DNA of 64,000 bases from Lichina pygmaea (lineage: Eukaryota > Ascomycota > Lichinomycetes > Lichinales > Lichinaceae): contig OY730175.1 in NCBI GenBank assembly GCA_963422465.1, forward strand, positions 2,728,001-2,792,000. The letters are read 5' to 3'. Below the pieces are notes generated by a model. The model saw only the letters and a list, made by a program, of their open reading frames with translations, was not told the DNA's origin and did no database searches. The position numbers were made by a program, and so were the translations under genes. Positions 25,069 to 57,863 of this stretch are shown one piece after another (positions within the stretch are counted from its first letter, which is position 1; every line of letters begins with the position of its first letter).

Positions 25069-25234
25069 TGTCACAGTTCTCACCCAGTTGCATATCTGGC
25101 ACAAGTCACACACCTTGCCGGGAAGTTCCATCTGCACTGTTGCCTGTTTGCTAGCCACACACCTTGCCGGGATGTTCCATCTGCACTGTTGCCTGTTTGC
25201 TCTGCTGTATCCCCTGCCTATAAGAACTTCTCCT
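25069..25234 (+). repeat. 3' LTR of Gypsy Y, first part
   Basis: The LTR starts TGTCACAG after the tract AAGGAGGGGGGTAA, has the long-form duplication, and stops after AGAACTTCTCCT (25223-25234), where LINE sequence begins. The missing remainder, starting with the same 12 bases, is the reverse complement of 45364-45522. Confidence 0.93.
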
Positions 25235-25263
25235 CACCCAACCAGTGCCAAACAATCTCTAAC

Positions 25264-26670
25264 ATGGCTCCCAAGAAGAAAAAACCCACCTCTTCAGAAA
25301 GTAACACCAGAGCTACACCAGCTATACTCTCCCAACCAGCTTGCAGTCTGCCTAGCACCCAGTCCAGCTCTCCTACCCTCCAACCAGCTCCCCAGAATGA
25401 CTACAAACTAGTAGACTCCTGGATCAAAACCCAACCAGTCCCAGAATCTATTCTGAAAAGCTGGGAAAATATCAAAAAGAACTCCTTCTCTACAGAAGCC
25501 CAGTCTAGCTCTACTGGCCTCACCAACAGAATCTTCCAGGAGCTGGAGAATATCAACAAGCGGCTGGACAAACAAGAAGCCAAGCCATCATATGCCCAGG
25601 CTGTCCAAAAATCTATTCCAGCACAAATCCCTCCACCTGCAAGAATTCTCAAAGAAGTTCTTGTACATCCTGGTATCCAGCCACCTGACATGGCTAATAG
25701 AACTCACATCCAGCTTTTCCAGGCTCTTCAAGACAGACTACCCAGCCCCTACAACAAGCAGGTCAGAGCAGTAAGGAAACTTCCTTCAGGGGGTATCCTT
25801 ATTAACACAGAAAGCCAAGAGACTAAAGTCTTCCTAGAGAAAAACCCTGCCTGGGTATCAGCTATCTTCACAAAGAAAGCAACCATCCAGCCCAAGAGAT
25901 TCCCAGTTCTGATCCATGGAGTCAGAACAGAAGATATCCAACCTGAAGACCTGGAGAAAACCTGCCAGATAATCCAGAACAGCAACCCATCTCTGAGCAA
26001 ACAAATCACCATCCTGAGAGCCTACTGGTCTAAGAAGGCTATAGCTCAAAAGAAGCCAGTTACCTCTCTCCACCTGGATCTGGCTACCCCTGAACAAGCC
26101 AATCTTTTGATTGAGAGTGGGCTAGTGCTGGGGCACAGGATGCATGAAGCAGAACCTTTCCTGGCAGACACAGTCATTGCACAATGTTTCAAGTGCTTTG
26201 GCTATGGGCACCAAGCACGCTTCTGCAAGAACAAAGCTGTGTGTGGTGCCTGTGGAGGCCAGTATGAAAGGAGAGCCTGCCAAGTTCCTGAACAGCTTCT
26301 CAAGCCAAAATGCTGCAACTGCAGAGGAGCTCACCCAGCCTGGGCCAGTGTCTGTCCAGTACGCCAGGAAGCAGCCAAGAAGGCAAGAGAAGCATGGAAC
26401 ACAAACCCAGGAAAATATGAGATCCCAACAGCTACCTCTGTTCCAGCTCTACAACCCCCCCCAGTTATGTCTTTCCCTCTCTCTCAGTCTCTACCAGGAG
26501 GGAAAAAATGTAAAACAGCTGAGCCAAGCAGAAGCTCAGAGAGACTCAGAGGTGCACTCCCAGAAGTGCAAATTCTTTCTTCAAGATCAGCCAACTCTGG
26601 AGGAAAGCTACCAGCTAACTCCTTCAAGATCTTTGATGCTGAGATGTCTGCATGGAAGACACAAAGCTGA
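25264..26670 (+). CDS. LINE ORF1, gag-like RNA-binding protein
   Basis: 468 residues, starting at the ATG of MAPKKKKPTSS; an upstream in-frame ATG at 25189 lies in the LTR and is not a credible LINE start. A Ser/Pro-rich N-terminus is followed by a short coiled stretch (ELENINKRLDKQEA), a core with VRKLPSGGI, FPVLIHGVRT and LDLATPEQANLL, and three zinc knuckles. The first is intact (CFKCFGYGHQARFC), the second has Tyr for His, and the third is CCNCRGAHPAWASVC. It is expected to coat LINE RNA. Its stop at 26668-26670 lies just inside ORF2, which starts at 26652. Confidence 0.9.
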   Translation: MAPKKKKPTSSESNTRATPAILSQPACSLPSTQSSSPTLQPAPQNDYKLVDSWIKTQPVPESILKSWENIKKNSFSTEAQSSSTGLTNRIFQELENINKRLDKQEAKPSYAQAVQKSIPAQIPPPARILKEVLVHPGIQPPDMANRTHIQLFQALQDRLPSPYNKQVRAVRKLPSGGILINTESQETKVFLEKNPAWVSAIFTKKATIQPKRFPVLIHGVRTEDIQPEDLEKTCQIIQNSNPSLSKQITILRAYWSKKAIAQKKPVTSLHLDLATPEQANLLIESGLVLGHRMHEAEPFLADTVIAQCFKCFGYGHQARFCKNKAVCGACGGQYERRACQVPEQLLKPKCCNCRGAHPAWASVCPVRQEAAKKAREAWNTNPGKYEIPTATSVPALQPPPVMSFPLSQSLPGGKKCKTAEPSRSSERLRGALPEVQILSSRSANSGGKLPANSFKIFDAEMSAWKTQS

Positions 26671-29600
26671 CACTTCTCCAGTATAATGTGCAAAAAAGCC
26701 AATCAGTCCAAGAGCTACTGCTAGCAACCTCAGCTCTCCAAGAGGTGGACATTATTGCACTTCAAGAGCTCTGGAAAAACCCTCACCTAGAAACAAGCAC
26801 TTCAATTGTTTTCTCTTCCTTTCTTCCTCTCTACTGTTCAGAGATTGGCAGAACACTTTTTCTTATTGATAAAAATCTGAAACTCTCTTCTCTTCATCCT
26901 ACCTTCTGGAATAAAAACTTTGTTTCTCTTGAAATCTACTTGGAAAACTCTCCTACTTCTCTTTGGGTACATAATCTCTACTTCACCCCATCAAGTCAAG
27001 AAAACTACACAGAGGCATCAGAAGCTCTTCTCTGTTTACTCCAAAATACTTTACAAGAACAAGGACAACATATTCTTCTCACAGACTCAAATCTTCACCA
27101 CCCAGACTGGTCAAGGAAAAGAAGACTGTACTCTGAGACTGCAAACAAGTTTCAAGACCTAATGAAACATTTAAATCTGGATTTAGCTATTGCACCTTTC
27201 ACCCCTACCAGAGCAAGATCTCTTTCTGAAAAACCATGTTCTGCTATTGATCTGTCTTTTATTTCTTCTTCTCTTTCTAACTCTCTGATTTTCTCCAAAG
27301 TGGCTCTTCAGTTCTTTCATGGGTCTGACCACAGACCTGTACTAACCTGCCTGGACCTGGATCCTCCAAGGAAAATCTGGAAACCAGAAAGAAACTGGAG
27401 AACACTGGACTCAAACCTTGCAAGAGGAGAGTGTGAGAAGCTACACCTGCCCTTCCACTTCCAAGACAAATATGAAGTGGATGAGTACTTGGAGTATCTT
27501 GACAACTTTCTCCAAGAAGTAGCAAGCAAATCCACACAGCTCCAGAAGCAATCTGGCCACTCAGTTCCCTGGTGGAATCAAGAGATCCAAAACAAGGTTA
27601 AAGAGGAAAGAAGAGTAAGAAGAAAAGTGCAAAAAAGGCAAGCAAGCCAAGAGGAACTTGAGCAAGCAACTAAGCTCAAGAAAAAGGCAGTCAGACATGG
27701 AAAACAGAACACTTTCAGACACCAAATCTATAAGCTGGCCAGCTCTTCAAAGTTCTGGAAGCTTGCAAAGTGGGGAAAGTCCAAAGCCAACAAGACTCCT
27801 GATCTTTCTCTGGTTCCTGACCTGGAAACACAAGAAGGAATAGCCAAAACCTTTGAGGAAAAGACTAAAGCCTTCTCACAGCAGTTCTTTCCAAAAGCTC
27901 TAGTTCCAGAACCAGGCTCAGAAAGCTCCCAGACTATCTCTGAGATACAGCTCTCCCAGGAGGTAACATGTGAAGAAGTGGAGCAAATTCTGGCCAAGAA
28001 GAAACTTTTCACAGCAGGAGGGAGAGATAAGCTGCCAAATGGATTTCTGAGAGCTCTGGGGCCTAGGTTCTGCCAAGCTCTAGCTATTCTGACTTCAACA
28101 TGCTGGAAACTAGAGTACTTCCCTGAAAGATTTCAGAGTGCAAAAACAGTCTGCTTGAGGAAACCTGGCAAGAGAACCTACAATCAAGCTAGAGTCTGGC
28201 ACCCTATAGCTCTGCTAAACACAACAGGCAAGCTGATGGAAGCTATTACTGCAGCCAGACTAAGCAAGATAGCAGAAGAAGCTGGACTATTGCCAGATAT
28301 CCAGATGGGCTTTAGGAAAGGAAGATCCACAGAAGCAGCACTTTTCCTTCTAACCTCCCAAGTGGAAAAAGTCTGGAAGGAAGGCATGGTTGCATCCCTA
28401 CTCTCACTGGATATCTCAGAAGCCTATGACAGAGTTCTCCCCAAGATACTACAGCAAATTCTGAAAAGAAAAGAAATACCTGCCTGGCTAGCTTCCTGGA
28501 TCTACTCCTTTTGTGATAAGCACTCTACCACTCTTGTCTTTGATGATTCTGAGTCTTGTTCTATTCCTATTCATTGTGGAGTTTCTCAAGGTTCTCCACT
28601 ATCCTCCATTCTTTTTCTATTCTACATTTCTGAATTGCATGAGACTGTGCATACTCCCTCTTCTGGTGTATCTGCCCTGGGGTTTGCAGATGATACAAAT
28701 CTGCTTGCTTTTAGTCACTCCTTGAAAAGTAACCTTCTGAAGTTAAAGAAAACACACCACAAATGTCTATCCTGGGCTGCAAGACATGGAATAGTCTTCT
28801 CACCTGAGAAATATGAAATACTTCATTTTTCCAGAAGAAGATCAGACAATCTTCAGCTCAAGCTCAGACTGGGGAATGTGATTCTCAAACCAAAAGAAGA
28901 AGTGCGAGTACTTGGAGTGTACCTAGATGCAAAGCTCCACTGGCACAAACACCAGAGGATTATTCTTCAAAAAGCACAGAAAGCACTCTCTTCTTTTTCT
29001 AGAACTTCCTATTCTACTTGGGGCTTTCCAGTTCACACATCATGTCTGGTGTACACTGCTATACTGAGATCTCTACTGAGCTATGCAGTGGGGATCTGGT
29101 TTAACTCTCTAAGAAAATTCTCCAATATCTCTTCTCTTGTTTCATTTCAAAACAGATGCCTAAGACTTATTGGGGGTGCTTTCAAAGCCACTCCTTCTTT
29201 TCTATTAGAGAGTGAGCTTTTTCTTCTACCTCTAGACCTATACTTTAAATTTCGCACTGCCTGTTTTCTTTCTTCTATTCAAAACTCCCCTCTCAAATAC
29301 TTTCTTGACAGTATCTTTTCCACTATTTCCAGCTATACCTCTCTCTTGAAGAAACCTTTAAAGGAATCCTCAACTATCTCTCCTAAGTGGAAATTCACTT
29401 GGTTAAGTCAAATAACTACTAACCAGGCTAGTTCAAAGAAAGAACTACAAAAGCTCTTTACTAAAGAGTGGGAAGACCAATGGGAAGAGAAGAAAAGAAG
29501 AAGCTATCCAGGCTGGCAGACTTTCTGTCAAAAGCCACACAAAAACAATCTGAAGCTCTACAAAGAGTTACAGAAAGCTGAGGCAAGTCTGCTACTGCAA

Positions 29601-29894
29601 ATCAGGACTGGAAGAATTGGTCTGGCAAGTTTTCTTTTCAGAGCTGGAGTTCCTGACTTCCCTACCCCACTATGTGTGTGTGGCCAAGCAGAAGAAACTG
29701 CAAAACATATCACCTCTTCATGCTCTCTTTATTCAAGACAAAGACAACAAGTCTCTTTTAATCCTCAAGACTTCACCACTATTATTTCAAACCCAGAGCT
29801 ACTACAGAAGTTCTTGTACTGGTTTATGTCTTTGAAAAGACTAAACCAGTTTAATCTAGCTTTCAAACTCCACTATTCCCAATCCAATACCTAG
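26652..29894 (+). CDS. LINE ORF2, endonuclease-reverse transcriptase
   Basis: 1080 residues. Residues 1-235 form the endonuclease, with N12 in LQYNVQ, E39 in LQELW, DSNLHHPDW and the S225-D226-H227 motif. The RT occupies about residues 440-780, with MGFRKGRSTEAALF, SLDISEAYDRV, QGSPL and catalytic FADD at 678-681. A thumb and long linker follow. A C-terminal Cys-His motif (C1008-x-C1010, then H and C in AKHITSSC) closes the protein. I see no RNase H block. The 19-nt overlap with ORF1 suggests reinitiation. The protein performs target-primed reverse transcription, and no stop or shift is visible. Confidence 0.93.
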   Translation: MEDTKLTLLQYNVQKSQSVQELLLATSALQEVDIIALQELWKNPHLETSTSIVFSSFLPLYCSEIGRTLFLIDKNLKLSSLHPTFWNKNFVSLEIYLENSPTSLWVHNLYFTPSSQENYTEASEALLCLLQNTLQEQGQHILLTDSNLHHPDWSRKRRLYSETANKFQDLMKHLNLDLAIAPFTPTRARSLSEKPCSAIDLSFISSSLSNSLIFSKVALQFFHGSDHRPVLTCLDLDPPRKIWKPERNWRTLDSNLARGECEKLHLPFHFQDKYEVDEYLEYLDNFLQEVASKSTQLQKQSGHSVPWWNQEIQNKVKEERRVRRKVQKRQASQEELEQATKLKKKAVRHGKQNTFRHQIYKLASSSKFWKLAKWGKSKANKTPDLSLVPDLETQEGIAKTFEEKTKAFSQQFFPKALVPEPGSESSQTISEIQLSQEVTCEEVEQILAKKKLFTAGGRDKLPNGFLRALGPRFCQALAILTSTCWKLEYFPERFQSAKTVCLRKPGKRTYNQARVWHPIALLNTTGKLMEAITAARLSKIAEEAGLLPDIQMGFRKGRSTEAALFLLTSQVEKVWKEGMVASLLSLDISEAYDRVLPKILQQILKRKEIPAWLASWIYSFCDKHSTTLVFDDSESCSIPIHCGVSQGSPLSSILFLFYISELHETVHTPSSGVSALGFADDTNLLAFSHSLKSNLLKLKKTHHKCLSWAARHGIVFSPEKYEILHFSRRRSDNLQLKLRLGNVILKPKEEVRVLGVYLDAKLHWHKHQRIILQKAQKALSSFSRTSYSTWGFPVHTSCLVYTAILRSLLSYAVGIWFNSLRKFSNISSLVSFQNRCLRLIGGAFKATPSFLLESELFLLPLDLYFKFRTACFLSSIQNSPLKYFLDSIFSTISSYTSLLKKPLKESSTISPKWKFTWLSQITTNQASSKKELQKLFTKEWEDQWEEKKRRSYPGWQTFCQKPHKNNLKLYKELQKAEASLLLQIRTGRIGLASFLFRAGVPDFPTPLCVCGQAEETAKHITSSCSLYSRQRQQVSFNPQDFTTIISNPELLQKFLYWFMSLKRLNQFNLAFKLHYSQSNT

Positions 29895-30066
29895 ATTCTC
29901 TTCTCTTACCAGAAACTTCAAGATTTCTTTTGTTACATTCCCTAGTCACACTCTGCCTTCAGTTTTTATCCCTTCAAAGGTTTTCTGAAGGAGTTCACTA
30001 TTAGCTAGAAGATCTGCATGGCTGTAAAGCTACTACCAGTGTAAGAATCAAATAAATAAAATAAAA

Positions 30067-33000
30067 AATGTGCAAAAAAGCCAATCAGTCCAAGAGCTAC
30101 TTCTAGCAACCTCAGCTCTTCAAGAGGTGGACATTATTGCACTTCAAGAACTCTGGAAAAACCCTCACCTGGAGATAAGCACCTCTACTGTTTCTTTTCT
30201 TCCTCTTTACTGTTCAGAGATTGGTAGAACACTTTTTCTTATTAATAAAAACCTGAAACTCTTTTCTCTTCATCCTACTTTCTGGAGTAAAGACTTTATT
30301 TCTCTTGAAATCTACTTGGAAAACTCTTCTACTTCTCTTTGGGTGCATAATCTCTACTTTACCCCATCAAGTCAAGAACACTATACAGAGGCATCAGAAG
30401 CTCTTCTTTTTTTACTCCAAAATGCTTTACAAGTACATGGACAACATATTCTTCTCACAGATTCAAACCTCCACCACCCAGACTGGTCAAAGAAAAGAAG
30501 ACTGTACTCTGACACTGCAAACAAGTTCCAAGGTCTAATGAAAGATTTAATCCTGGATTTAGCTATTGCAACTTTTACTCCCACCAGAGCAAGATGTCTT
30601 TCAGAAAAACTATGTTCTGCAATTGATCTGTCTTTTATTTCTTCTTCTCTTTCTAACTCCCTGATTTTCTCTAAAGTGGCTCTCCAGTTCTTTCATGGGT
30701 CTGACCACAGACCTATACTAACTAGCCTGGACCTGGATCCTCCAAGGAAAACCTGGAAGCCAGAAAGGAACTGGAAGACACTGGACTCAAACCTTGCAAG
30801 AGTAGAGTGTGAGAAGCTACAGCTACCTTCCCACTTTCAAGACAAAGATGAAGTGGATAAGTACTTGGAGTACCTGGACAACTTTCTCCAAGAAGTGGCA
30901 AGCAAATGTACACAGCTCCAGAAGCAATCTGGTCACTCAGTTCCCTGATGGAACCAAGACATCCAAAACAAGGTTAGAGAGGAAAGAAGAGTAAGAAGAC
31001 AAGTTCTCAGAGGACAGGCATCCCAAGAAGACCTTGAGCAAGCAACTAAGAACAAGAAAAAAGTGGTCAGAGAGGGAAAGCAGACGACCTTCAGACAACA
31101 AGTCTATCAGCTAGCCAGTTCTTCAAAATTCTGGAAGCTTGCAAAGTGAGGAAAAACAAAAGCCAACAGGACTCCTGATCTTCCCCTGGTCCCAGACTTG
31201 GAAACTCAAGAAGGACTAGCTAAAACCTTTGAGGAGAAGACAAAAGCATTCTCAGCCCAGTTCTTCCCCAAAGCACTTGTTCCAGAACCAAGTACAGAGA
31301 GTTCCCAGAGTACTCCAGAGATCCAGCTTTCTCAGGAAGTTACTGCTGAAGAAGTGGAACAAATCCTGAACAAAAAGAAACCTTTCACAGCAGGGGGAAA
31401 AGATAAGCTGCCAAATGGATTTCTGAAAGCTCTGGGTTCCAAGTTCTGCCAAGCTATGGCTGTTCTTACATCAACATGCTGGAGACTGGAATACTTTCCA
31501 GAGAGGTTCAAGAATGCAAAGACAGTCTGTCTAAGAAAAGCTGGTAAAGGATGCTATAACCAAGCTAAAGCCTGGCACCCTATAGCTTTGCTAAACACAA
31601 CTGGCAAGCTGATGGAAGCTATTACAGCAACCAGGCTAAGCAAGGTAGCAGAAGAAGCTAGACTTTTGCCAGAAATCCAGATGGGCTTCAGGAAAGGAAG
31701 ATCAACTGAATCAGCACTCTTCCTACTAACTTCCCAAGTGGAAAAAGTCTGGAAGGAAGGCATGGTTGCATCTCTACTTTCTCTGGATATCTCAGAAGCC
31801 TATGACAGAGTTTTACCTAAGATTCTCCAAAAAATCCTAGAGAGAAAAGGAATTCCTCTCTGGCTATCTTCCTGGATTCTCTCTTTCTGCACCAGTCGTT
31901 CTACCACTCTTGTGTTTGATGACTCTGAGTCTTCTGCTACTCCTATTCACTGTGGAGTTCCCCAATGTTCCCTTTTATCTCCTATTCTATTTCTATTTTA
32001 CATTTCTGAACTTCATGAAACTGTACACTCTCCTTCCACTGGTGTTTCCGCTCTGGGATTTGCAGATGATACAAATCCGCTTGCATTTGGACACTCTCTA
32101 AAAAGCAACCTTCTGAAGTTAAAGAACACACACCTCAAATGTCTATCATGGACTGCAAGACATGGAATAGTCTTCTCTCCTGAGAAATATGAAATACTTC
32201 ATTTTTCCAGAAGAAGATCAGACAATCGTCAGCTTAAGCTCAGACTGGGGAATGTGATTCTAAGACCAAAAGAAGAAGTGCGAGTATTAGGAGTGTACCT
32301 GGATGCAAAACTCCACTGGCATAAGCACCAGAGAATTATTCTTCAAAAAGCCCAGAAAGCACTTTCCTCTCTTTCTAGAACTTCATATTCTACTTGGTGT
32401 TTCCCAGTCCTCACATCACGTCTTGTGTACACTGCAATACTCAGATCTTTATTGAGTTATGCTGTGGGGATCTGGTTCAATCCTCTAAGAAAATCTTCTA
32501 ATATCTCTTCTCTTAGCACATTCTGGAACAAATGCCTGAGACTTATTGGAGGTGCCTTCAAAGCCACTCCATCTTTCTTATTAGAGAGTGAGCTTTTTCT
32601 TTTACCTCTAGATCTCTATTTCAAATTTCGCACAGCCTGTTTTCTCTCTTCTATTCAAACCTTCTCTCTGAAAACACTTCTGGACAATATCTTTTCCAAT
32701 ATCTCCCACTATGCCTTTTCTGTGAAGAAACCTTTAAAGGAATCCTCAACTATCTCCCCCTATTGGAAGTTCACTTGGTTAAACCAATTAACTACTAACC
32801 AGGCTAGTTCAAAGAAACAACTACAGAAACTCTTTGTTAAAGAGTGGGAAAACCAATAGGAGGAGAAGAAAAGAAAACGCTACTCCGGGTGGCAGGTGTT
32901 TTGTCAAAAGTCTCACAACAACAACCTGAAGCTCTACAAAGAGCTACAGAAAGCTGAGGCAAGTCTACCACTACAAACCAGAACTGGGAGAATTGGCCTG

Positions 33001-33445
33001 GCAAGTTTTCTATTCAGAGCTGGAGTTACAGACTTTCCTACCCCTTTATGTGTGTGTGGTCAAGCAGAAGAGACAGTGAAACATATCACCTCTTCATGCT
33101 CTCTTTATTCAAGTCAAAGACAGCAAGCTCCTTTTAATTCTCAAGATTTCACTTCTATTATTTCAAACCCAGAGCTTCTACAGAAGTTTCTATACTGGTT
33201 CATGTCTTTGAAAAGACTGAACCAGTTTAATCTAGCTTTCAAACTCCACTATTCACACTCTAATATCTAGAAGTTTTCTTTCTACCAGTCACTACAAGAT
33301 TTCCTTTTGCTACATCCTCTAGTCACCCCCAGTCTTCAGTTTTTATTCCTCTAAAGGTTTTCTGAAGAAAATCACTCTTAGCTAGAAGATCTGCATGGCT
33401 GAAAAGCTACTATCAGTGTAAGAATCAAATAAAAAAATAAAAAAA
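30067..33445 (+). mobile_element. LINE-D, 3' part (ORF2 and tail)
   Basis: This LINE starts at the beginning of ORF2 (ATGTGCAAAAAAGCC) and ends with an A-rich tail before ACATGGCTGTATC (33446-33458). The same 13 bases lie at 51806-51818, directly before a 5' LINE piece that ends in AATGTGCAAAAAA (51890-51902). The two pieces are thus one LINE-D insertion, split by another LINE and now 18 kb apart. Confidence 0.9.
30070..33270 (+). pseudogene. LINE-D ORF2, three premature stops
   Basis: The sequence is collinear with the intact ORF2 at 26652-29894. Stops at about 30946 (TGG to TGA), 31148 and 32857 break it into open pieces of 292, 553 and 124 residues. The endonuclease motifs are present. 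RT retains MGFRKGRSTESALF and FADDTNPL. The C-terminal Cys-His motif is kept. The copy is non-functional. Confidence 0.9.
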
Positions 33446-33611
33446 ACATGGCTGTATCACTGGCACCTGTAATATTACCTATGCCACAGAGAGCTACACT
33501 CTCTTCTCCCACATGTCTGGTACATCTGGAACATCTCTCTATCCAGAGAGGTGTCTTACACCAGAATGAAAGTATCAGTAGTATGATAGGTTTTTGATCA
33601 CTACTTGACTG

Positions 33612-33930
33612 GAACATCTATAACTTCACAACATAGTGACTAAATTGAAATGTAAGCAGCTTAATTGATTCTCCTACTTCTCTACTATAATCCCTGAAGG
33701 TATAGACTTCTCTAGATTTTTGTGGTGTTGTTGAGAAGCTATAGTAGTTGTCACTCACAGAACAGATTCTCAACAACATCAATTTGAAACACCTGCAACT
33801 CCACAACTAGATAGACAAGTGATAATTTTTATGTCTATCTGATTCCCCTACTCTTCTACTATCATCCCTGATGCTACAGACTCTCCCGGATTCTGCTAGT
33901 ATTGTTGAGTAACTACTGTAGCTACTATAG
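33612..33930 (+). repeat. Diverged tandem repeat, ~175-bp unit
   Basis: Two units align in order: AACTTCACAAC and AACTCCACAAC, then the shared CTACTATAATCCCTGA-like and CTACTATCATCCCTGA-like segments, then TTGTTGAG. They are about 175 bp apart and strongly diverged. No coding potential is apparent. Confidence 0.5.
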
Positions 33931-34132
33931 CCATGTTAGCTACTATAGAAACTTGAGTCACCCACTTCACTTCTCTCAGACATGTGATCTTTTGGTCACT
34001 CTTCCTTGTTTTGTAGATATATTACTTTCATTGCTTGTAAAAAGGTCTGCAATCTCAGAAATGATAGTGTAGAATTAGAGGAATCAATTAAGCCAGTTAC
34101 ATTTTCATGTAGTCATTGTGTTGTGGAATTAT

Positions 34133-34548
34133 TTTGATTTGATTTGATTCTTACACTGATTTGGCTGTTAAGCCATGCAAAACTTCTTGAAGAATTTTTG
34201 TCTCTGGTAGACTTGACTCAGGGACCTCACGTATTTACTGTACACCCTGTGGTTTGTAGTGTACGTACTGTGGGAAAACCCCAAACCCTGTAGGGGAAAT
34301 AGGAAAACCACAGTAATGAGGGTTTTGTGGATCTTGACGGATATTGGGTGAGCTATTTCTTGGGGGTTTTTTATACATCTTGCGAGGAGTACATCTTAGA
34401 CAAGTTCTATGAATCTCGGGGGTTTTTGTGGCAGAATGTGGGGTGGGTCAGATTCAAACTGACGACTAGTTTAGTCAGGTTCTCCAGGCCTGACACCACT
34501 AGTTCCGGGGGAAACTCTCACCAGCTTCCCGCTACACCATGCCGCCCC
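34133..34548 (-). mobile_element. tRNA-derived SINE, copy 2
   Basis: This minus-strand copy of 416 bp has a perfect 13-bp target duplication, GTTGTGGAATTAT, at 34120-34132 and 34549-34561. The tail (rc of ATCAAATCAAA) is at the left, and the tRNA-like head with A- and B-boxes is at the right. It is inserted into the right arm region of the inverted-repeat relic. Confidence 0.95.
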
Positions 34549-34734
34549 GTTGTGGAATTATAGGCATTGCAGTTGATTCTATCAAGAAAACCTTTCATAC
34601 CGCTGATACTTTTATTCCGGTGTTAGACACCTCTCTGGATAGAGAGGTGTTCCGGACGTACCGGAGGTGCGGGAGGAGGGGGTGTAGCCCCCCGTGGCAC
34701 AGGCACTGCAATCATAGGTTGTGGTGGTAGATCT

Positions 34735-35665
34735 CACATGTCTTGACATCTGCTCCTTCGACAATACCCTTGTCGAGTATTCAGTTTGCTGCTGCCAGCT
34801 TATAGGTGTCCACCAGTAGTGATGAGTAGTCCTTTCCTTGTGCTGCCTGAGGCTATGCCACTTTCACAATCCTGAGTCCTGGGTGCAGGGTGTGATTCTG
34901 CCGGGTGAGGGCATTGATCACCTGTTGCTGTTGCTCCGTGTCGATGGACTTGGTCCTGACTCCGTGAACCAGCACGGAGTAGACTTGTCGCGATACCTCT
35001 GCCAACTTCCCAATACTGACCAGCCGCTCTGTTGACCACTCCACCTCATTCTTTGCTGCGACCATAGAGGTGTGGAGCATGTAGTCGCCGCTGGGTAGTC
35101 ACCGTACGCCCAGTACTGCTCTGCCACCAGTATTCCTGAAGTGGTTGATCTGTTCCTTCAGCTCCCCACACAACACCCGGTGTAGGTGTTCTGCTTCCAC
35201 TGTGTTCTTGATCTTGACTAGCACCACCTTATGGGGCCTTGCCTCAGTGTCTGCTGGCAGTCCTCTGTGAGCCTGCTGCGCAACCTCTGCGTAGGTCCTG
35301 GGTCCTTGCTTGCCTGCCGCTAGCTGACCTTTCTCCAGCTTGCCCAGCCGAGCCTCAACTCTTCCTAGGACTGTTAGTACTTCCTTACCAATCTCCTGGT
35401 TCTGATGCTGCTGCTGCGGGCCCTGCGGCGCCGCTGTATTGTTGTCATCGCACCTCCTGCGCGTTGTCTCCGGGTTCACGTTCATGTTCGTGATTGTGTC
35501 GGAGATCTCGTCGAGCGATCCCAGGAACTCCACCACTTTTTTCAACAGTCCAAGACTTGATCTCTCGTCTGAATAGAGGTCTCCCGAGGTGTCTGCTGCA
35601 TCTATGTGTGCCTTTACATCGTGGTATAGCTTCGCCGACAAAAAGTCGGTTTTATCGCTTGACAT
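34735..35665 (-). pseudogene. GC-rich LINE ORF1 relic next to the trehalase promoter
   Basis: A minus-strand frame starts with MSSDKTDFLSAK at 35665, has a TYAEVAQ segment, and reaches a TGA at 35099-35101 where Arg (CGA) is expected before LPSGDY. The same frame continues to a TAG at about 34853 with SVLVHGVRTKSID, the counterpart of PVLIHGVRTEDIQ in the other LINE ORF1s. Weak similarity (KLAAAN, ILDKGIV) continues to about 34735, and no zinc knuckles are present. It is a second, CpG-retaining Tad-like family. It could be mistaken for a host gene, but the ORF1 motifs argue against that. Confidence 0.75.
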
Positions 35666-35991
35666 GGTTGTTTTGGGTGTCTGTTACTTATATACAGTAT
35701 GAATGTAGGAAAGTGACGTGGAAAGCCACGTGACAAGGGGTACCCACAATCACTTTCTGTACTTCTCCGGCAGCTGCTTGGCCAGGGTGATTTACATTCT
35801 CAACTTCTCCAATCGTAGTCGACACTGGTCCGCGGGGAATTTGGCACGGTGGGCTTGGCGTGAAGTCGAGGTCACGGTGGCGGAGCCAGCCAGGTCAGAA
35901 GACACGGAGGCCATACTACTTCTTGACGGGAATAGTGAGCGAGAGAGCGCAGGGGCGAGCACACAAATCACATCGAGACAACAAGGCAATC
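35666..35991 (+). promoter_or_regulatory. Upstream region of the trehalase gene
   Basis: About 325 bp separate the divergent LINE relic from the trehalase ATG. It contains a stress-response-type core AGGGG (35736-35740), an E-box CACGTG (35727-35732) and a short inverted repeat ACGTGG-AAAG-CCACGT around 35715-35730. Stress elements of this type control neutral trehalase in yeasts; their use here is inferred. A TATATACAGTATG stretch near 35690 could be the LINE/promoter boundary. Confidence 0.5.
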
Positions 35992-45334: not shown

Positions 45335-45363
45335 CCCGGATCTGTGAGCATGGACCCAGCCAA

Positions 45364-48357: not shown

Positions 48358-49493
48358 CCACAGTTGAGCTATGCCGAGGTATAGCGCAGAGTCGACATCC
48401 TGTGCAGGGTCTCTGCCACGCTTCCCCGCAGTCCTGAGGCTTTTTGCGCTCCGCCACGTACGCTCACCCCTAGGTCCTGCTTCAGAGCGCCGGGTTGCCA
48501 GCCCGGAGCCCACGCTCCAACTGCAGTTTTCTCCTTGAGTCCGTCATTTGCAGCCTGAGCCTGCACTCTGTACGGACCGGCATGCGCTTCCGTCCTCTCG
48601 GGCCATATAGACAGTCTTGTAGTAGGCCCAGACCCTACTGCCATCACTGCCATTATATGCCACGCCCCGCAGCTCTCGCTGTTTCGTGTTACCTCTGTAG
48701 ATCTCTCGTACAGAGGCCGACCATGCCTCGCAGGCTCTACGGACCCTGCAGGCCATGCCAGCACCTGCAGGACTGTCTTTCCAGCCCACTAACCAAGTAG
48801 AGAGGAGTCTCAATCTGCCCGCTGTCGCCTGTGGGGCCCCGGTTGTATGTGGTGACCCACCGGAGAACCTCTGAACAGAGAATCTCCGGTGCCCCGGCCC
48901 CGGTCCGCAGGCAGTCCGAAGGGAACCCGTGGCAAGGCCTTAGGCAAAACCATCAAGCCAGCACTTTGGCTATCACACGGCCCTTAGGCACTGGAGCGGC
49001 GGGCTTCCTCCGGGCTGCCTGCTCGCCTTCTTGAACACGTATTCCCTGTTCGATTAACAATACCGCGGTGCAGATATCGCTCCCCTCCTAGAACAAGATC
49101 CTCGACGCATTAGCTGCTGGAGACTCTGCTAGGGGGGTTGTGCGATGAAAACTCCTCTCGACTACTCCAGAGGTGCCCTGTCGGATGCCTAGACTTCACA
49201 TCCACCAGCTGCAGGGCTGGCTTCGGGCTGTAGCGTACACGGTAGACATCTGTCAGGTGGTTTTCATAACCAGTTTGGTCGCAGTCCTCTGTTCTGCTGA
49301 TGTCGCTTCACGGGGGTGTCCAGGGTGCCTGCGCGACACCTCCGGTGGCCCATCACTCCACGGGCACCAGCAGCTCGACCGGTGACTCAATTAGCTCTTG
49401 ATGCAGCGACTACAAGCAGCTTGGGAGACTGCCTGCCATCGCTGCACCGAGGTTCCCAGCCTGCACCACGTGGAGGTTTGAGTCGTCGCAGGC
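48358..49493 (-). other. GC- and CpG-rich module at the 5' end of a LINE insertion
   Basis: This 1.1-kb block differs sharply in composition from everything around it. Read on the minus strand it begins GCCTGCGACGACTC directly after the target duplication AAGTCAAATAACTA (49494-49507) and ends at the LINE ORF2 junction, so it is the 5' part of that retroposed unit. It holds a stem (CACCGGAGA ... TCTCCGGTG, about 48860-48894) and only short open frames, the longest being 131 codons at 48369-48764 minus. No family was recognised. Its composition resembles the trehalase locus, so a host transcript is possible. Confidence 0.6.
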
Positions 49494-49532
49494 TAGTTAT
49501 TTGACTTAGCCAAGTGAACTTCCAATTAGGAG
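49494..49532 (-). mobile_element. LINE-C, 5' end piece
   Basis: This 39-bp piece of LINE ORF2 (minus strand; AATTGGAAGTTCACTTGG) ends in AAGTCAAATAACTA. The LINE continues with the same 14 bases at 57211 on the plus strand. Its 5' flank, AATAGTGTAGCTAT (49533-49546), matches as reverse complement the flank of the LINE-C tail at 57864-57877. Confidence 0.85.
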
Positions 49533-49871
49533 AATAGTGTAGCTATAGTGCTCTTGCTTCACAAGTGCTGCAAATGCTTGCACACTGACTATGCCAATCA
49601 ATAGAGGTGTTGCTGCCCTGTCACTTTGTCAGAGTCACCACATCCAGTCAGCCCAATAGATGTCTGGGTCATACTTCTTCAGCCACAGCATACTGAGGAC
49701 AATGTTGTATCTGGCTATATCAGCCACAACAAGCTTCTCTGCAGACTTCTTAACAGCTTCTTGTGTATCAGTTATCTTTAACAGTGGTTTGACAATGTGG
49801 AAGGTCTACAGGCAGTTTCTATTGATTGTGCAGACAGTTGGGGCTGTAGTGCTCTTGACTGGCAGTATACT

Positions 49872-50123
49872 CTACTTCTTGGCACAAAACCCTGTGATGA
49901 AGTTCCTGGTTACCCTAGTATCAACTAAGACTTCCAGTGTCACAACCCCACTGGCAAGACTCTGTACCTCCACCAGCAAGACAACATGCTTATTTGTGTC
50001 TAGTTCACAGCTTGCCAGAATTGACACTATGTTGAGGCGGCCAGATCTTTTGCCTCTGGAGTTTCCTTCAGCTTCACTTTGGAGAAGTGGCACTGCTTCT
50101 GTGTGTGGCTTCTCTTGCTGCAA
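49872..50123 (-). pseudogene. Protease start of Gypsy G3
   Basis: The frame contains VTLEVLVDTRVTRNFITGFCAKK. This is the LVDSGAT-RNFI block of retroviral-type aspartic proteases with the catalytic D-S/T-G changed to D-T-R. The reading frame ends there. Catalytic activity is not expected. Confidence 0.8.
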
Positions 50124-51414
50124 TTACAACAAAATAGTGGCTCTGATAACCTCTTGGTCTTCCCCTGGGGTGTTGCACTGTCCTTCTGGTTAGCACAATC
50201 ACTTTTGTCTCTTGAGGCACTAGCTGTGTTGGCACCTGCAGTGTTGGAGCCACTGCTCCACAACTTGCCAGAGGTCTTCCTCTGGCTACGTGAACCACCT
50301 TCACCTTCTTTGCCTTGGTAAGAGGTTGAGTCATCAGCTATGTGGTCAGCTGATTTGACTTGATAGCAAGGTTGACTGTACCACTGTAGGTCTGTGTCAG
50401 AGTGCTGCTGGCAGTGATCCTTCAGAGAAGCTCTGGCCACAGGTTTGTCAGGAAGTGCAGGATGTGTTGCAGCTTCACAAAGGTGATGCCAACAAGCTTC
50501 TCAGTTTTTTCCAGGCACTGTGTGAACTTCAAGACTTTTTTGTGTGGCTTTTGAGCCAGGTTCTTCCACTTCTTGTAGGCTTTGACTATCTGTACAGCAG
50601 CCAGATTGATCATGTCAATCAGTATTTCTTGAAAGCTGTCCCACATCATGTCCACCTGAGGTGTCTTATTCTCCCACCAGCTCCACACATACTGCATGTT
50701 GTCTTGCAGATGGAATACAGTGAAGAAGATCTTCAATAAGTCTGTGGTGTAGCTTTTTAAGTAGATCTCAAACACCAAATTACATTGGTGAATAAACTTC
50801 TCAAGCTTGGGTAACAAAGTCCCACTGTATTTGTCTGGTGGGACAATGTAAGGGTGGTTCTCCAGAGCACCCTCACAGAGATGTTTAGCCCCCACGAAGA
50901 CATCTTTGAAGATGCTGTCAGAGTGGTGTCTGATCAGAGCTACACTTCTGCCAGCTTCCACCTCAGCTACACATCACTGAAGGCAGTTGATCTTCTTGTC
51001 TATTTGAAGAACCTTGAGTCTAGCTTTAAGCTCACAAAGCTGCTCACACTTAAGCTGCACCTCTTCCTCTAAGTGAGGTGTTGCAGGTGACTCAGGCTCA
51101 GCTGCTTGGTCTTTGCCCTTATCTACCCAACCTGCATAGCCACTTGCAGTAGCCTGTACAGAGATGTCAAAAGTGATGCCTGAAGTGCCTGAGAGCCCAG
51201 CAACCTTGTCTTGCAATAGTCAGATTACCAGGTGACCTGCAGGTCTTGCTGCAGAAGCTGTGTTATTATTGTCTGACAACTTCTCTGCAGAGCTTCCATT
51301 GTCTGGTGATGGACTTCCATCATGATGATGTGATAGACTTGAAGCAGCAGCCATGTTGGCACCCTGGTGGGCCACCACACAGTGGGTTGTTACACTCTGT
51401 TGCTGGTCAGTCAT
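50027..51414 (-). pseudogene. Gag of Gypsy G3
   Basis: The start is MTDQQQSV at 51414, with stops at 51220 and 50974. A coiled segment (HLEEEVQLKCEQLCELKARLK) and a capsid-like domain (YIVPPDKYSGTLLPKLEKFIHQC to FVKLQHILHFLTNLWPELL) follow. After a frameshift a Ser/Lys-rich part carries a CCHC knuckle CNCSKRSHTQKQC near 50095-50140. The protein differs strongly from the two other Gags in the window. Confidence 0.8.
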
Positions 51415-51818
51415 GATCACAAAGATTTCATGATCAAATCACCACTCTGGGCTACTTCCTTTAAGGAAAGAGTTGTCAGAACTGTAAGGGTGCTAGAGTC
51501 TTAGCAGGACAGAGTCATGATAAAAGCCTGTTCCCTAGGCAGCTACTGAAAGATGCCTGGAAGATGTCAACAAGTAAGCCTGTAGAGTATCACTCAATAG
51601 ATAGAGTCTGACAACTGGCCTCTCAACCAGTGTTGGGAGAGAGGCCTGCTTATATGAATCTTGCTTAATGATTATGTGACTTGGTATGTACATGTCACAT
51701 GACTGCTAAGTCACATGACTGCTAAGCAAGATGACATGCAGCCAAACCCAGTCAGGCACTCACACAAGCTGTGTGGCTTCTGACAGATCACAGTATGCTG
51801 TTGCTACATGGCTGTATC

Positions 51819-51902
51819 GCCAACCCTTTCAAGATTTTTGAAGATAAGATGTCTACATGAAAGACTCAAAGCTCACACTTCTCCAGTATAATGTGCAAAA
51901 AA
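51819..51902 (+). mobile_element. LINE-D, 5' end piece
   Basis: The piece starts directly after ACATGGCTGTATC and reads FKIFEDKMST-like ORF1 C-terminus, then the ORF1/ORF2 junction. It ends with AATGTGCAAAAAA (51890-51902), after which a full-length LINE 5' end begins. Its continuation is at 30067. Confidence 0.88.
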
Positions 51903-52409
51903 CAAAAAAACTCTTCCCAGAACTATGTTCTTCAAGGACCATCATTTTTGACAAACACCACAATTTGTCATATGTTCTGGAAAACAGCTGAGTTCCTCTC
52001 TGAAACCACCCAAACCTTAAGGTGAAAACCCATCACCTTTGGGAATCACACCTGTTTGTCAAAAGTTGTGATCTTGAATCCACAGTCTTCTTCTTCTTCA
52101 ACAACCAGCAATCTACCCACAACCAGAGAGAGAGAGTCTTAGGATAAGAGGAATGGTTAGAGTCTGACTGACTCTGGAGCTAGCAGAGTCTTTGGCTCAA
52201 GGAAAGTCTAGATAGGGGGTCTGGTCCCTAGTCTAGGTTAATACTTCTAGCTTTGCCCAGAGCTTAGTTGGAAAAAGCTGCCCAGGAAAGTCTAGTCTTG
52301 GGGATTGGTCCCAGGACTAGATTATTACTGCTGGGAAACCAGGTGACTCTTCTTTCTGGGAGTACTCTGCAGACAGAAAACACCCAACCAGTGCCAAACA
52401 ATCTCTAAC

Positions 52410-53801
52410 ATGGCTCCCAAGAAGAAAAAACCCACCTCTTCAGAAAGTAACACCAGAGCTACACCAGCTATACTCTCCCAACCAGCTTCCAGTCTGCCTA
52501 GCACCCAGTCCAGCTCTCCTACCCTCCAACCAGCTCCCCAGAATGACTACAAACTGGTAGACTCCTGGATCAAAACTCAACCAGTCCCAGAATCTATTCT
52601 GAAAAGCTAGGAAAATATCAAAAAGAACTCCTTCTCTACAGAAGCCCAGTCTAGCTCTACTGGCCTCACCAACAGAATCTTCCAGGAGCTGGAGAATATC
52701 AACAAGTGGCTGGACAAACAAGAAGCCAAGCCATCATATGCTCAGGCTGTCCAAAAATCTATTCCAGCACAAATCCCTCTACCTGCAAGAATTCTCAAAG
52801 AAGTTCTTGTACATCCTGGTATCCAGCCACCTGACATGGCTAATAGAACTCACATCCAGCTTTTCCAGGCTCTTCAAGACAGACTACCCAGCCCCTACAA
52901 CAAGCAGGTCAGAGCAGTAAGGAAACTTCCTTCAGGGGATATTCTTATTAACACAGAAAGCCAAGAGACTAAAGTCTTCCTAGAGAAAAACCCTGCCTGG
53001 GTATCAGCTATCTTCACAAAGGAAGCAACCATCCAGCCCAAGAGATTTCCAGTTCTGATCCATGAAGTCAGAACAGAAGATATCCAACCTGAAGACCTGG
53101 AGAAAACCTGCCAGATAATCCAGAACAGCAACCCATCTCTGAGCAAGCAAATCACCATCCTGAGAGCCTACTGGTCTAAGAAGACTATAGCTCAAAAGAA
53201 GCCAGTTACCTCTCTCCACCTGGATCTGGCTACCCCTGAACAAGCCAATCTTTTGATTGAGAGTGGGCTAGTGCTGGGGCACAGGATGCATGAAGCAGAA
53301 CCTTTCCTGGCAGACACAGTCATTGCACAATATTTCAAGTGCTTTGGCTATGGGCACCAAGCACGCTTCTGCAAGAACAAAGCTGTGTGTGGTGCCTGTG
53401 GAGGCCAGCATGAAAGGAGAGCCTGCCAAGTTCCTGAACAGCTTCTCAAGCCAAAATGCTGCAACTGCAGAGGAGCTCACCCAGCCTGGGCCAGTGTCTG
53501 TCCAGTATGCCAGGAAGCAGCCAAGAAGGCAAGAGAAGCATGGAACACACACCCAGGAAAATATGAGATCCCAACAGCTACCTCTGTTCCAGCTCTACAA
53601 CCCCCCCCAGTTATGTCTTTCCCTCTCTCTCAGTCTCTACCAGGAGGGAAAAAATGTAAAACAGCTGAGCCAAGCAGAAGCTCAGAGAGACTCAGAGGTG
53701 CACTCCCAGAAGTGCAAATTCTTTCTTCAAGATCAGCCAACTCTGGAGGAAAGCTACCAGCTAACTTCTTCAAGATCTTTGATACTGAGATGTCTGCATG
53801 A
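52410..53801 (+). pseudogene. LINE ORF1 with one stop
   Basis: This is collinear with the intact ORF1 at 25264. The single visible break is TAG at 52608-52610, a Trp (TGG) codon in the intact copy. Downstream from 52836 the frame is open with all three knuckles (CFGYGHQARFC, CGACGGQHERRAC with its His present, CCNCRGAHPAWASVC). ORF2 starts at 53798, overlapping its end. Confidence 0.9.
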
Positions 53802-56800
53802 AAGACACAAAGCTGACACTTCTCCAGTATAATGTGCAAAAAAGCCAATCAGTCCAAGAGCTACTGCTAGCAACCTCAGCTCTCCAAGAGGTGGACATTA
53901 TTGCACTTCAAGAGCCCTGGAAAAACACTCACCTAGAAACAAGCACTTCAACTATTTTCTCTTCCTTTCTTCCTCTCCACTGTTCAGAGATTGGCAGAAC
54001 ACTTTTTCTTATTAATAAAAATCTGAAACTCTCTTCTCTTCATCCTACCTTCTAGAATAAAGACTTTGTTTCTCTTGAAATCTACCTGGAAAACTCTTCT
54101 ACTTCTCTCTGGGTACATAATCTCTACTTCACCCCATCAAGTCAAGAAAACTACACAGAGGCATCAGAAGCTCTTCTCTGTTTACTCCAAAATGCATTAC
54201 AAGAACAAGGACAACATATTCTTCTCACAGACTCAAATCTTCACCACCCAGACTGGTCAAAGAAAAGAAGACTGTACTCTGAGACTGCAAACAAGTTTCA
54301 AGACCTAATGAAACATTTAAATCTGGATTTAGCTATTGCACCTTTCACCCCTACCAGAGCAAGATCTCTTTCTGAAAAACCATGTTCTGCTATTGATCTG
54401 TCTTTTATTTCTTCTTCTCTTTCTAACTCTCTGATTTTCTCTAAAGTGGCTCTTCAGTTCTTTCATGGGTCTGACCACAGACCTGTACTAACCTGCCTGG
54501 ACCTGGATCCTCCAAGGAAAATCTGGAAACCAGAAAGAAACTGGAGAACACTGGACTCAAACCTTGCAAGAGTAGAGTGTGAGAAGCTACACCTGCCCTT
54601 CCACTTCCAAGACAAATATGAAGTGGATGAGTACTTGGAGTATCTTGACAACTTTCTCCAAGAAATAGCAAGCAAATCCACACAGCTCCAGAAGCAATCT
54701 GGCCACTCAGTCCCCTGGTGCAATCAAGAGATCCAAAACAAGGTTAAAGAGGAAAGAAGAGTAAGAAGAAAAGTGCAAAAAAGACAAGCAAGTCAAGAGA
54801 AACTTGAGCAAGCAACTAAGCTCAAGAAAAAGGCAGTCAGAGATGGAAAACAGAACACTTTCAGACACCAAATCTATGAGCTGGCCAGCTCTTCAAACTT
54901 CTGGAAGCTTGCAAAGTGGGGAAGGTCCAAAGCCAACAAGACTTCTGATCTTCCTCTGGTTCCTGACCTGGAAACACAAGAAGGAATAGCCAAAACCTTT
55001 GAGGAAAAGACTAAAGCCTTCTCACAGCAGTTCTTTCCAAAAGCTCTAGTTCCAGAACCAGGCTCAGAAAGCTCCCAGACTATCTCTGAGATACAGCTCT
55101 CCCAGGAGGTAACATGTGAAGAAGTGGAGCAAATTCTGGCCAAGAAGAAACCTTTCACAGCAGGAGGGAGAGATAAGCTGCCAAATGGATTTCTGAGAGC
55201 TCTGGGGCCTAGGTTCTGCCAAGCTCTAGCTATTCTGACTTCAATATGCTGGAAACTGGAGTACTTCCCTGAAAGATTTAAGAGTGCAAAAACATTCTGC
55301 TTGAGGAAACCTGGCAAGGGAACCTACAATCAAGCTAAAGCCTGGCACCCTATAGCTCTGCTAAACACAACAGGCAAGCTGATGGAAGCTATTGCTGCAG
55401 CCAGACTAAGCAAGATAGCAGAAGAAGCTGGACTATTGCCAGATATCCAGATGGGCTTTAGGAAAGGAAGATCCACAGAAGCAGCACTTTTCCTTCTAAC
55501 CTCCCAAGTGGAAAAAGTCTGGAAGGAAGGCATGGTTGCATCCCTACTCTCACTGGATATCTCAGAAGCCTATGACAGAGTTCTCCCCAAGATACTACAG
55601 CAAATTCTGAAAAGAAAAGGAATACCTGCCTGGCTAGCTTTCTGGATCTACTCCTTCTGTGATAAGCACTCTACCACTCTTGTCTTTGATGATTCTGAGT
55701 CTTGTTCAATTCCTATTCATTGTGGAGTTTCTCAAGGTTCTCCATTATCCTCTATTCTTTTTCTATTCTACATTTCTGAATTGCATGAGACTGTGCATAC
55801 TCCCTCTTCTGGTGTATCTGCCCTGGGGTTTGCAGATGATACAAATCTGCTTGCTTTTGGTCACTCCTTGAAAAGTAACCTTCTGAAGTTAAAGAACACA
55901 CACCTCAAATGTCTATCATAGGCTGCAAGACATGGAATAGTCTTCTCTCCTGAGAAATATAAAATACTTTATTTTTCCAGAAGAAGACTAGACAATCTTC
56001 AGCTCAAGCTCAGACTGGGGAATGTGATTCTCAAACTAAAAGAAGAAGTGTGAGTACTTGGAGTGTACCTAGATGCAAAGCTCCACTGGCACAAACACCA
56101 GAGGATTATTCTTCAAAAAGCACAGAAAGCACTCTCTTCTCTTTCAAGAACTTCCTATTCTACTTGGGGCTTTCCAGTTCACACATCATGTCTGGTGTAC
56201 ACTGCTATACTGAGATCTCTACTGAGCTATGCAGTGGGGATCTGGTTTAACCCTCTAAGAAAATCCTCCAATATCTCTTCTCTTGTTTCATTTCAAAACA
56301 GATGCCTAAGACTTATTGGGGGTGCCTTCAAAGCCACTCCTTCTTTTCTATTAGAGAGTGAGCTTTTTCTTCTACCTCTAGACCTATACTTTAAATTTCG
56401 CACTGCCTGTTTTCTTTCTTCTATTCAAAACTCCCCTCTCAAATACTTTCTTGACAGTATCTTTTCCACTATTTCCAGCTATGCCTCTCTCTTGAAGAAA
56501 CCTTTAAAGGAATCCTCAACTATCTCTCCTAAGTGGAAATTCACTTGGTTAAGTCAAATAACTACTAACCAGGCTAGTTCAAAGAAAGAACTACAAAAGC
56601 TCTTTACTAAAGAATGGGAAGACCAATGGGAAGAGAAGAAAAGAAAAAGCTATCCAGGCTGGCAGACTTTCTGTCAAAAGCCACACAAAAACAATCTGAA
56701 GCTCTACAAAGAGTTACAGAAAGCTGAGGCAAGTCTGCTACTGCAAATCAGGACTGGAAGAATTGGTCTGGCAAGTTTTCTTTTCAGAGCTGGAGTTCCT

Positions 56801-57040
56801 GACTTCCCTACCCCACTATGTGTGTGTGGCCAAGCAGAAGAAACTGCAAAACATATCACCTCTTCATGCTCTCTTTATTCAAGACAAAGACAACAAGTCT
56901 TTTTTAATCCCCAAGACTTCACCACTATTATTTTAAACCCAGAGCTACTACAGAAGTTCTTGTACTGGTTTATGTCTTTGAAAAGACTAAACCAGTTTAA
57001 TCCAGCTTTCAAACTCCACTATTCCCAATCCAATACCTAG
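53798..57040 (+). pseudogene. LINE ORF2 with nonsense codons
   Basis: The endonuclease start (LTLLQYNVQKSQ) is at 53798. The frame is broken by TAG near 54053, TAG at 55919-55921 and TGA at 56051-56053. All domains of the intact ORF2 are present, including SDHRPV, MGFRKGRSTEAALF, FADDTNLLAF and the C-terminal Cys-His motif. The last two stops are also in the 45523-48357 copy. Confidence 0.92.
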
Positions 57041-57210
57041 ATTCTCTTCTCTTACCAGAAACTTCAAGATTCCTTTTGTTACATTCCCTAGTCACACCCT
57101 GCCTTCAGTTTTTATCTCTTCAAAGGTTTTCTGAAGGAGTTCACTATTAGCTAGAAGATCTGCATGGCTGTAAAGCTACTACCAGTGTAAGAATCAAAAA
57201 AAAAAAAAAA

Positions 57211-57863
57211 AGTCAAATAACTACTAACCAGACTAGTTCAAAGAAAGAACTACAAATACTCTTTACTAAAGAGTGGGAAAACCAATAGAAGAAGAAGAAA
57301 AGAAGAAGCTACACTGGGTGGCAGGTGTTTTGCCAAAAACCTCACTACAACAACCTGAAGCTCTACAAAAAGTTACAGAAAGCTGAGGCAAGTCTGCTAC
57401 TGCAAACTAGAACTGGGAGAATTAGTCTAGCAAGTTTTCTTTTCAGAGCTGGAGTCTCTGACTGTCCTACCTCTTTATACATTTGTGGTCAAGCAGAAAA
57501 GACAGTAAAGTATATTATCTTTTCATGCTCTCTCTACTCAAGTCAAAGACAATATACTCTCTTTAACCCCCAAGATTTCACTAGTATTATTTCAAACCCA
57601 GAGCTTCTACAGAAGTTTCTGTACTGGTTCATGTTTTTACAAAGACTAAACCAATTTAATGTGGCTTTCAAACTTCACTATTCACACTCCAACATCTAGA
57701 AGCTTTTCCTACCAGACACTACAAGATTTTCTTTTGCTACACTTCTAGTCACCTCCCTGTCTTCAGTTTTTATTCCTTTAAAGGTTTTTTGAAGAACTTC
57801 ATTATTAGCTGGAAGATCTGCATGGCTGTAAAGCTACAAACAGTGTAAGAATCAAATGAAAAA
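57211..57863 (+). mobile_element. LINE-C, 3' part
   Basis: LINE ORF2 C-terminus (IRLASFLF-like, CGQAEKTVKYI), 3' UTR and tail, starting with AAGTCAAATAACTA and ending before ATAGCTACACTATT (57864-57877). Both flanks have partners near 49494-49546. The ORF contains stops near 57287. Confidence 0.88.

Follow-up and report, generated by a model that had tools for sequence, protein, structure and literature searches.

Permuted target-site duplications at three LINE copies of Lichina pygmaea suggest two LINE-mediated inversions and involve a chimera with a predicted HDV-like ribozyme

In the Galileo inversion 2z3 of Drosophila buzzatii, element copies in opposite orientation, exchanged target-site duplications (TSDs) and chimeric copies served as the criteria of ectopic recombination (PMC2775673). 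Another described system, MINE, comprises the WEIRD-MGL chimeras of Magnaporthe grisea, in which a 1.1-kb non-coding 5′ part is fused to a 5′-truncated long interspersed nuclear element (LINE) (PMC2104539). Additionally, ribozymes similar to that of hepatitis delta virus (HDV) are found at the 5′ end of non-LTR (long terminal repeat) elements such as R2, R4 and L1Tc (PMC3774820), and variant HDV ribozymes occur in fungi (PMC5640933). The locus compared with these systems here is a 64,000-nucleotide stretch of the Lichina pygmaea genome, hereafter the window (contig C7, positions 2728001-2792000; genome of 32.5 Mb in 8 contigs), in which three copies of one LINE family carry TSDs that belong to one another. 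As in Galileo 2z3, these copies lie in opposite orientation and their TSDs are exchanged; unlike that case, a fungal LINE, three copies and two exchanges are involved, and the segments concerned measure 15.5 and 2.4 kb. Judged from the sequence, the arrangement was very probably produced in the organism by two LINE-mediated inversions. The mechanism is already known from the Galileo inversions; the locus stands out because the window can be decoded so completely and because one of the copies that recombined is a putatively ribozyme-headed chimera. No earlier description of it was found in the top-ranked literature on inversions mediated by transposable elements with exchanged duplications or on Lichinomycetes genomes.

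The first copy, LINE1 (25235-30066, forward strand), is near full-length and has an open endonuclease/reverse transcriptase (EN/RT) frame at 26652-29894 with matches to RVT_1 and Exo_endo_phos_2, while LINE3 (51903-57209, forward strand) is full-length, other full-length copies beginning at its positions 1-15, and has an interrupted RT frame. The middle copy, LINE2, lies on the reverse strand and had been taken in the sequence-only reading for a LINE throughout. This holds for 45523-48357, a 5′-truncated LINE, but 48358-49493 is a separate repeat of 1136 nt, named W, which forms the 5′ part of LINE2. TSD a (AGAACTTCTCCT) is found at the 5′ flank of LINE1 (25223-25234, forward) and at the 3′ flank of LINE2 (45511-45522, reverse); TSD b (AATGTGCAAAAAA) at the 3′ flank of LINE1 (30067-30079, forward) and the 5′ flank of LINE3 (51890-51902, forward); and TSD c (AAGTCAAATAACTA) at the 5′ flank of W (49494-49507, reverse) and the 3′ flank of LINE3 (57210-57223, forward). 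All were located by string search of the window, and b and c additionally by a join test, the copy of b at 30067 and that of c at 49494 being at the same time sequence of two older elements, LINE-D and LINE-C. Over LINE1, LINE2 and LINE3, the TSDs are permuted as a three-cycle, a-b, c-a and b-c.

The older elements in which the three copies are nested are split at the same places, as had been claimed. LINE-D is divided into a 5′ piece at 51819-51902 and a 3′ piece at 30067-33445, both forward, with its outer TSD ACATGGCTGTATC at 51806-51818 and 33446-33458. LINE-C consists of a 5′ piece at 49494-49532 (reverse) and a 3′ piece at 57210-57863 (forward), with the outer TSD ATAGCTACACTATT at 49533-49546 and 57864-57877. 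The main part of Gypsy Y occupies 19519-25234 (forward) and the end of its 3′ LTR 45364-45522 (reverse), bounded by TTGGC at 19514-19518 and 45359-45363; Gypsy X is found at 42488-45363 (forward) and 16938-19518 (reverse), bounded by GCTGG at 42483-42487 and 16933-16937. Gypsy X in turn interrupts LINE-E, of which one part lies at 41726-42487 (forward) and the other at 16246-16937 (reverse). All seven flank pairs proposed earlier, counting these enclosing insertions, were recovered, six of them exactly where they had been placed; for the right-hand copy of TSD c the string was present and its position, given as 57211-57224, had to be moved by one base. However, the seven pairs do not test the order seven times independently, because they are reducible to three joins to which the nested pairs are tied: pairs a, Y and X belong to join a, pairs b and D to join b, and pairs c and C to join c.

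Since the inner strings sit in repeats (string a inside a Gypsy LTR, strings b and c inside LINE coding sequence), matching strings alone are weak evidence, and it was therefore asked whether each predicted ancestral join restores an element that is found uninterrupted elsewhere in the window or genome. Elsewhere in the window, unbroken sequence spans the ancestral joins a, b and c at 8, 4 and 4 places, and those of Gypsy Y in Gypsy X and of Gypsy X in LINE-E at 2 and 5; some of these places belong to the nest itself, the 5′ LTR of Gypsy Y being one. By the same test, the three present-day joins have 0, 0 and 0 spanning places in the window. Elsewhere in the genome, 3 copies run across the outer join of LINE-C with 83-84% identity, and one frame stays open through this join, with stops further out on either side. 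This join unites Gypsy Z, whose upstream side lies at 49533-49652 (reverse) and whose downstream side, with an RT frame at 58031-59020, lies at 57878-59020 (forward); the former becomes collinear with 57878 onward only once the segment that carries it is turned, and Gypsy Z probably reaches further into that segment. The empty sites seen are paralogous only, that is, other copies within the same genome. On these comparisons, it is element continuity, beyond the string matches, that lifts the flank pattern above chance.

The two segments delimited by the joins are S1 (30067-45522; 15.5 kb, joins a and b) and S2 (49494-51902; 2.4 kb, joins b and c). Keeping the left and right flanks in place leaves 8 possible orders and orientations of S1 and S2. 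Join a demands the 45522 end of S1 at the left flank, join c the 49494 end of S2 at the right flank, and join b the 30067 end of S1 beside the 51902 end of S2. The arrangement with both segments reversed in the same order is the only one that meets all three joins, the other seven meeting 0 or 1. This is the ancestral order that had been proposed, namely left flank, LINE(+), S1 reversed, LINE(−), S2 reversed, LINE(+), right flank, and two successive inversions are the shortest route from it to the present order. The orientations of LINE1(+), LINE2(−) and LINE3(+) place opposite copies at the ends of the inverted segments.

An alignment of the LINE copies, suggested earlier as a means of locating the crossover points, revealed that LINE2 and LINE3 have in common 12 alleles absent from the 18-28 other sampled copies covering each site, which is the highest number for any pair among 31 copies (the next is 3), and that they differ at 3 sites over 2.7 kb. 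LINE1 differs from both by approximately 2%. The sharing between LINE2 and LINE3 stops at LINE position 5101, and at position 5196 a private allele is found in LINE1 and LINE2 and not in LINE3. With regard to the chimerism criterion applied to Galileo, the S2 pair therefore offers 12 exclusive alleles ending at 5101 and the S1 pair one allele. Because the 12 exclusive alleles are combined with as few as 3 differences over 2.7 kb, an exchange of sequence between LINE2 and LINE3 after they had inserted is probable; a possible competing account is that both derive from a single source copy outside the sample. The pattern fits the view that the S2 exchange converted a long tract and that the S1 exchange took place close to the 3′ end.

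In the proposed history, LINE copies A(+), B(−) and C(+) would have inserted independently, nested in older elements: A into the LTR of Gypsy Y, an element that lies within Gypsy X and with it within LINE-E; B into LINE-D; and C, the W-LINE chimera, into LINE-C within Gypsy Z. Homologous recombination between the inverted copies A and B would have flipped S1 with its trehalase gene, and recombination between B and C would have flipped S2, leaving the duplications in the permutation observed. In the S2 exchange, gene conversion would have extended over 2.2 kb or more and stopped close to the LINE 3′ end, somewhere from position 5101 to position 5196. The crossing-over would have been reciprocal in both steps. 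Such a locus constitutes a readable stratigraphy, where the nested insertions give the order, the swapped duplications give the breakpoints and the private alleles suggest exchange after insertion.

A second swap was observed on contig C5 (1058922-1073712), where L033 and L041 lie in inverted orientation with approximately 8.5 kb between their facing 3′ ends, the 5′ duplication of L041 being the 3′ duplication of L033 and vice versa. Over the approximately 1.15 kb that they have in common, these copies show 1 difference; they also share 2 alleles absent from all others of the 31 copies, which is unremarkable alone, as three other pairs share 2 or 3. When 35 five-prime LINE flanks were compared with 39 three-prime ones, 9 cross matches were obtained in all: the three pairs of the window, the two of the C5 reciprocal pair, three at an LTR hot spot and one that was partial and not flush. 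Copies for this census came from a 3′-end search, in which the best 40 of 1,045 candidates were scored and gave 30 loci, supplemented with 8 further full-length copies picked on C1 and C2 for ends approximately 5.3 kb apart. Solo 5′-truncated copies with both ends had matching TSDs in 8 of 9 cases, L033 being the exception, so swapped TSDs are not the norm of this LINE family.

Among full-length copies outside the window, the count was made on 20. Two of the matches contain one mismatch (C2:3487k and C2:178k), and L051 was counted as matching by eye with 2 mismatches. In the census as a whole, L025 was counted as matching on 10 nt; a stricter filter returned no match for L025 or L051. Copies with no located 5′ end (L026, L030, L039 and L044), with the 5′ end outside the locus (L036) or with another LINE's tail as 5′ flank (L049) were left out, as was L031, a W chimera with a 13-nt match. 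A swap partner was found for L041 and, in the flank comparison of sampled copies, for none of the other eight unmatched full-length copies, indicating that rearrangement or TSD loss other than by local inversion is also common. When the flanks of eight unmatched copies were compared with the elements of the window, both could be placed in four (L027, L028, L043 and C2:2049k), and in each of these they lay in separate elements or had conflicting orientations; in the remaining four at least one flank had no useful match. A genome-wide partner search by TSD string fails, since the targets are themselves repeats: the 14-mer of L024 has 286 occurrences and that of L032 has 178. Separately, L043 and L051 were seen to lie beside the same target-LINE position (~2447), another possible hot spot, and at C2:4883588-4883950 two full-length LINE five-prime ends stand head to head approximately 300 bp apart, the plus-strand copy of the two having no matching TSD.

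Several observations weigh against two inversions in the organism or qualify the evidence for them. The inner strings a, b and c occur 8, 4 and 5 times in the window; to the question raised earlier of whether the flank matches are common sequences, the answer is hence divided, the inner strings being recurrent and the outer 13- and 14-mers having two occurrences each. The Gypsy LTR site of TSD a is a LINE insertion hot spot, also occupied by L025 and the C2:178k copy, so that string a alone proves little. At the LINE-D outer join, no spanning copy was found among the 41 matches listed, and the right half of this join coincides with the border of another repeat; this pair consequently rests on its 13-base duplication and on the continuity of LINE-D. 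Matching TSDs were found in 11 of the 20 full-length copies and were missing in 9, in a sample that was not random (12 best 3′-end matches plus the 8 picked from C1 and C2). The S1 exchange is favored by the single allele at 5196, possibly a coincidence, and a collapsed assembly node would equally give a near-identical LINE2 and LINE3 with swapped flanks. Finally, the evidence base is a single assembled genome, and its data are compatible with either sequence of the two inversions.

The best surviving alternative is that S1 and S2 were misoriented in assembly through near-identical LINEs and that the organism has the ancestral order. Near-identity of LINE2 and LINE3 over 2.7 kb would favor such an error, as would the abundance of the family (124 five-prime ends with at most 3 mismatches and 356 three-prime ends with at most 1 in the genome) and the lack of a TSD match, seen for 9 of the 20 full-length copies and for 1 of the 9 truncated ones, which a read-length limit would also give. 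However, telomere repeats are present at all 14 ends of C1-C7 despite the repeats of approximately 5 kb, and closing such a genome to its telomeres would need reads longer than the LINE. The C5 swap argues in the same direction, since only about 1.2 kb of shared LINE is involved there, and these two points speak against a collapsed node as well. Moreover, LINE1 is about 2% away from LINE2 and LINE3, and 11 of the 20 full-length copies do have matching TSDs. The window contains no N, and among 252,762 bases of loci the only N seen was in the first 400 bases of C8. The possibility of misassembly, already raised by the sequence-only reading, has thus become less likely in view of the capped contigs, the C5 swap and the allele sharing, and is regarded as improbable while keeping a small share of the probability. 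Less probable again is one complex event, either a single three-break repair or template switching at the three LINEs, from which a clean three-cycle is also expected; two simple inversions suffice, and separate events are favored because allele sharing differs between the pairs (12 versus 1). Independent insertions at preferred sites, with flanks matching through reused targets in repeats, could draw on the LTR hot spot and on the frequent L024 and L032 strings, but they leave unexplained both the missing target half of each LINE, found in register at other LINEs, and the splits of LINE-D, LINE-C, Gypsy X and Gypsy Y at the same places, and this scarcely credible account is largely refuted by the spanning copies. 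Two inversions by recombination between LINEs accordingly stay the preferred history, and the C5 signature together with the full-length copies that have no TSD match suggests that young LINEs keep reshuffling this genome.

The W unit at the head of LINE2 is a repeat with constant ends, of which 225 five-prime (at most 3 mismatches) and 139 three-prime ends (at most 1 mismatch) were counted in the genome. Examination of 40 three-prime ends gave 37 junction positions, three pairs sharing one. The first 20 W copies include three that run on into the window's LINE (L002, L007 and L012) and ten others with one of two LINE-like tails, GGAATACCA or GGAATTCAATC. In a second set of 20 W ends, the downstream sequence matches the window's LINE in 11 (in L121 over 36 nt only) and in 8 matches only sequence downstream of other W copies. 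The last one, L123 (C2:4321906-4322106), matches nothing, and is a candidate for the W source gene or for an unfamiliar LINE. Among five downstream tail frames tested, an RT domain was found in 2, a zf-RVT match below the cut-off in 1 and none in 2. Within 1.5 kb of W, duplications of at least 10 nt surround the whole chimera in 13 of 20 copies; none was found in 6, the window copy among them, and L006 has only a 9-nt match.

Two features of a MINE-type element, a constant 5′ unit joined to 5′-truncated LINE at variable positions and TSDs around the whole chimera, are thus seen with W. As in MINE, W is fused at many LINE positions, some used twice, with flanking duplications. Unlike in MINE, the LINE tails found behind W are of three kinds or more, and an HDV-like fold is predicted at its 5′ end, which in LINE2 is the 49493 side. 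The LINE part begins with CC in 24 of 40 W chimeras, and that report gives GCC*A/U (PMC2104539). Two published WEIRD primers match W no better than shuffles do, over the approximately 40 nt compared.

The HDV ribozyme model (RF00094) was matched over its whole length in L044, L003 and L052, copies that have the first G, with 40.9, 40.1 and 36.5 bits. The gathering score of 50 bits was reached by none of the copies scored, the diverged L031 gave no match, and the window copy, with A in place of the first G, scored 28.9 bits; W is therefore named HDV-like and not filed as RF00094. In a structure drawn on one of the tested sequences, the nested P1-P4 pseudoknot has 95.7% of its cells paired, against 31-35% for slid structures. 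Covariation is slight, as shuffled columns give 95.4% pairing and the 2 two-sided changes, both in L031, are equalled in 5 of 500 shuffles; 20 of the 23 sequences leave one P4 pair unformed. The whole-chimera duplications end just before GGCC in 11 of 13 copies, so the 5′ end of the insertion coincides with the predicted cleavage site in 11. As in R2, R4 and L1Tc, the predicted site lies at the 5′ end of the element, but here the fold heads the separate unit W and not the LINE itself. The fungal variants share with W the HDV fold and a nucleotide between P2 and P3; unlike them, W has G.U and not C-G at the cleavage site, and LINE chimeras are not mentioned in the portion of that paper available (PMC5640933).

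It is somewhat probable, on the basis of these models, that W is a self-cleaving RNA of approximately 1.1 kb whose ribozyme sets the 5′ end and onto whose 3′ end the reverse transcriptases of several LINE families jump. If so, a WEIRD/MINE-type system would exist in a second, distant fungal lineage and fungal HDV-like ribozymes would be tied to LINE chimeras, the W chimeras offering a connection, open to experiment, of self-cleaving RNAs with template jumping by LINEs. No earlier description of such a case was found in the top-ranked literature on WEIRD/MINE or on HDV-like ribozymes with fungi or retrotransposons, a set outside which subscription papers mostly fall. A bolder version, in which W would be an extrachromosomal RNA lacking any gene on a chromosome, seems very doubtful, being weakened by a circular fold that is not rod-like (by eye) and by a ribozyme match on one strand only. 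The W sense strand is more stable than 20 shuffles (circular, −509.5 versus a mean of −457.9 kcal/mol), and an exact 28-base piece of the W head had no match in viral_contigs. A viroid-like circle was also considered and is not favored, its structure being branched by eye.

The trehalase gene (36248-38849, forward strand; Pfam PF01204) lies entirely within S1, so the earlier statement that the flipped segment carries it stands, the gene having been moved unbroken. All 699 residues of its protein P0001 were matched at 36248-38473, through an intron, and at 38694-38849, and its closest named relative, at 83%, is that of Phylliscum demangeonii, a lichen fungus. Elsewhere in the window, 33476-33578 covers the border of a repeat that is present many times in the genome, several of its copies forming inverted pairs approximately 700 bp apart in the manner of terminal inverted repeats. 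Additionally, direct repeats at 3966-4383 and 9911-10328, 98.8% identical, bracket Gypsy-like frames and have the appearance of the two LTRs of a young Gypsy element.

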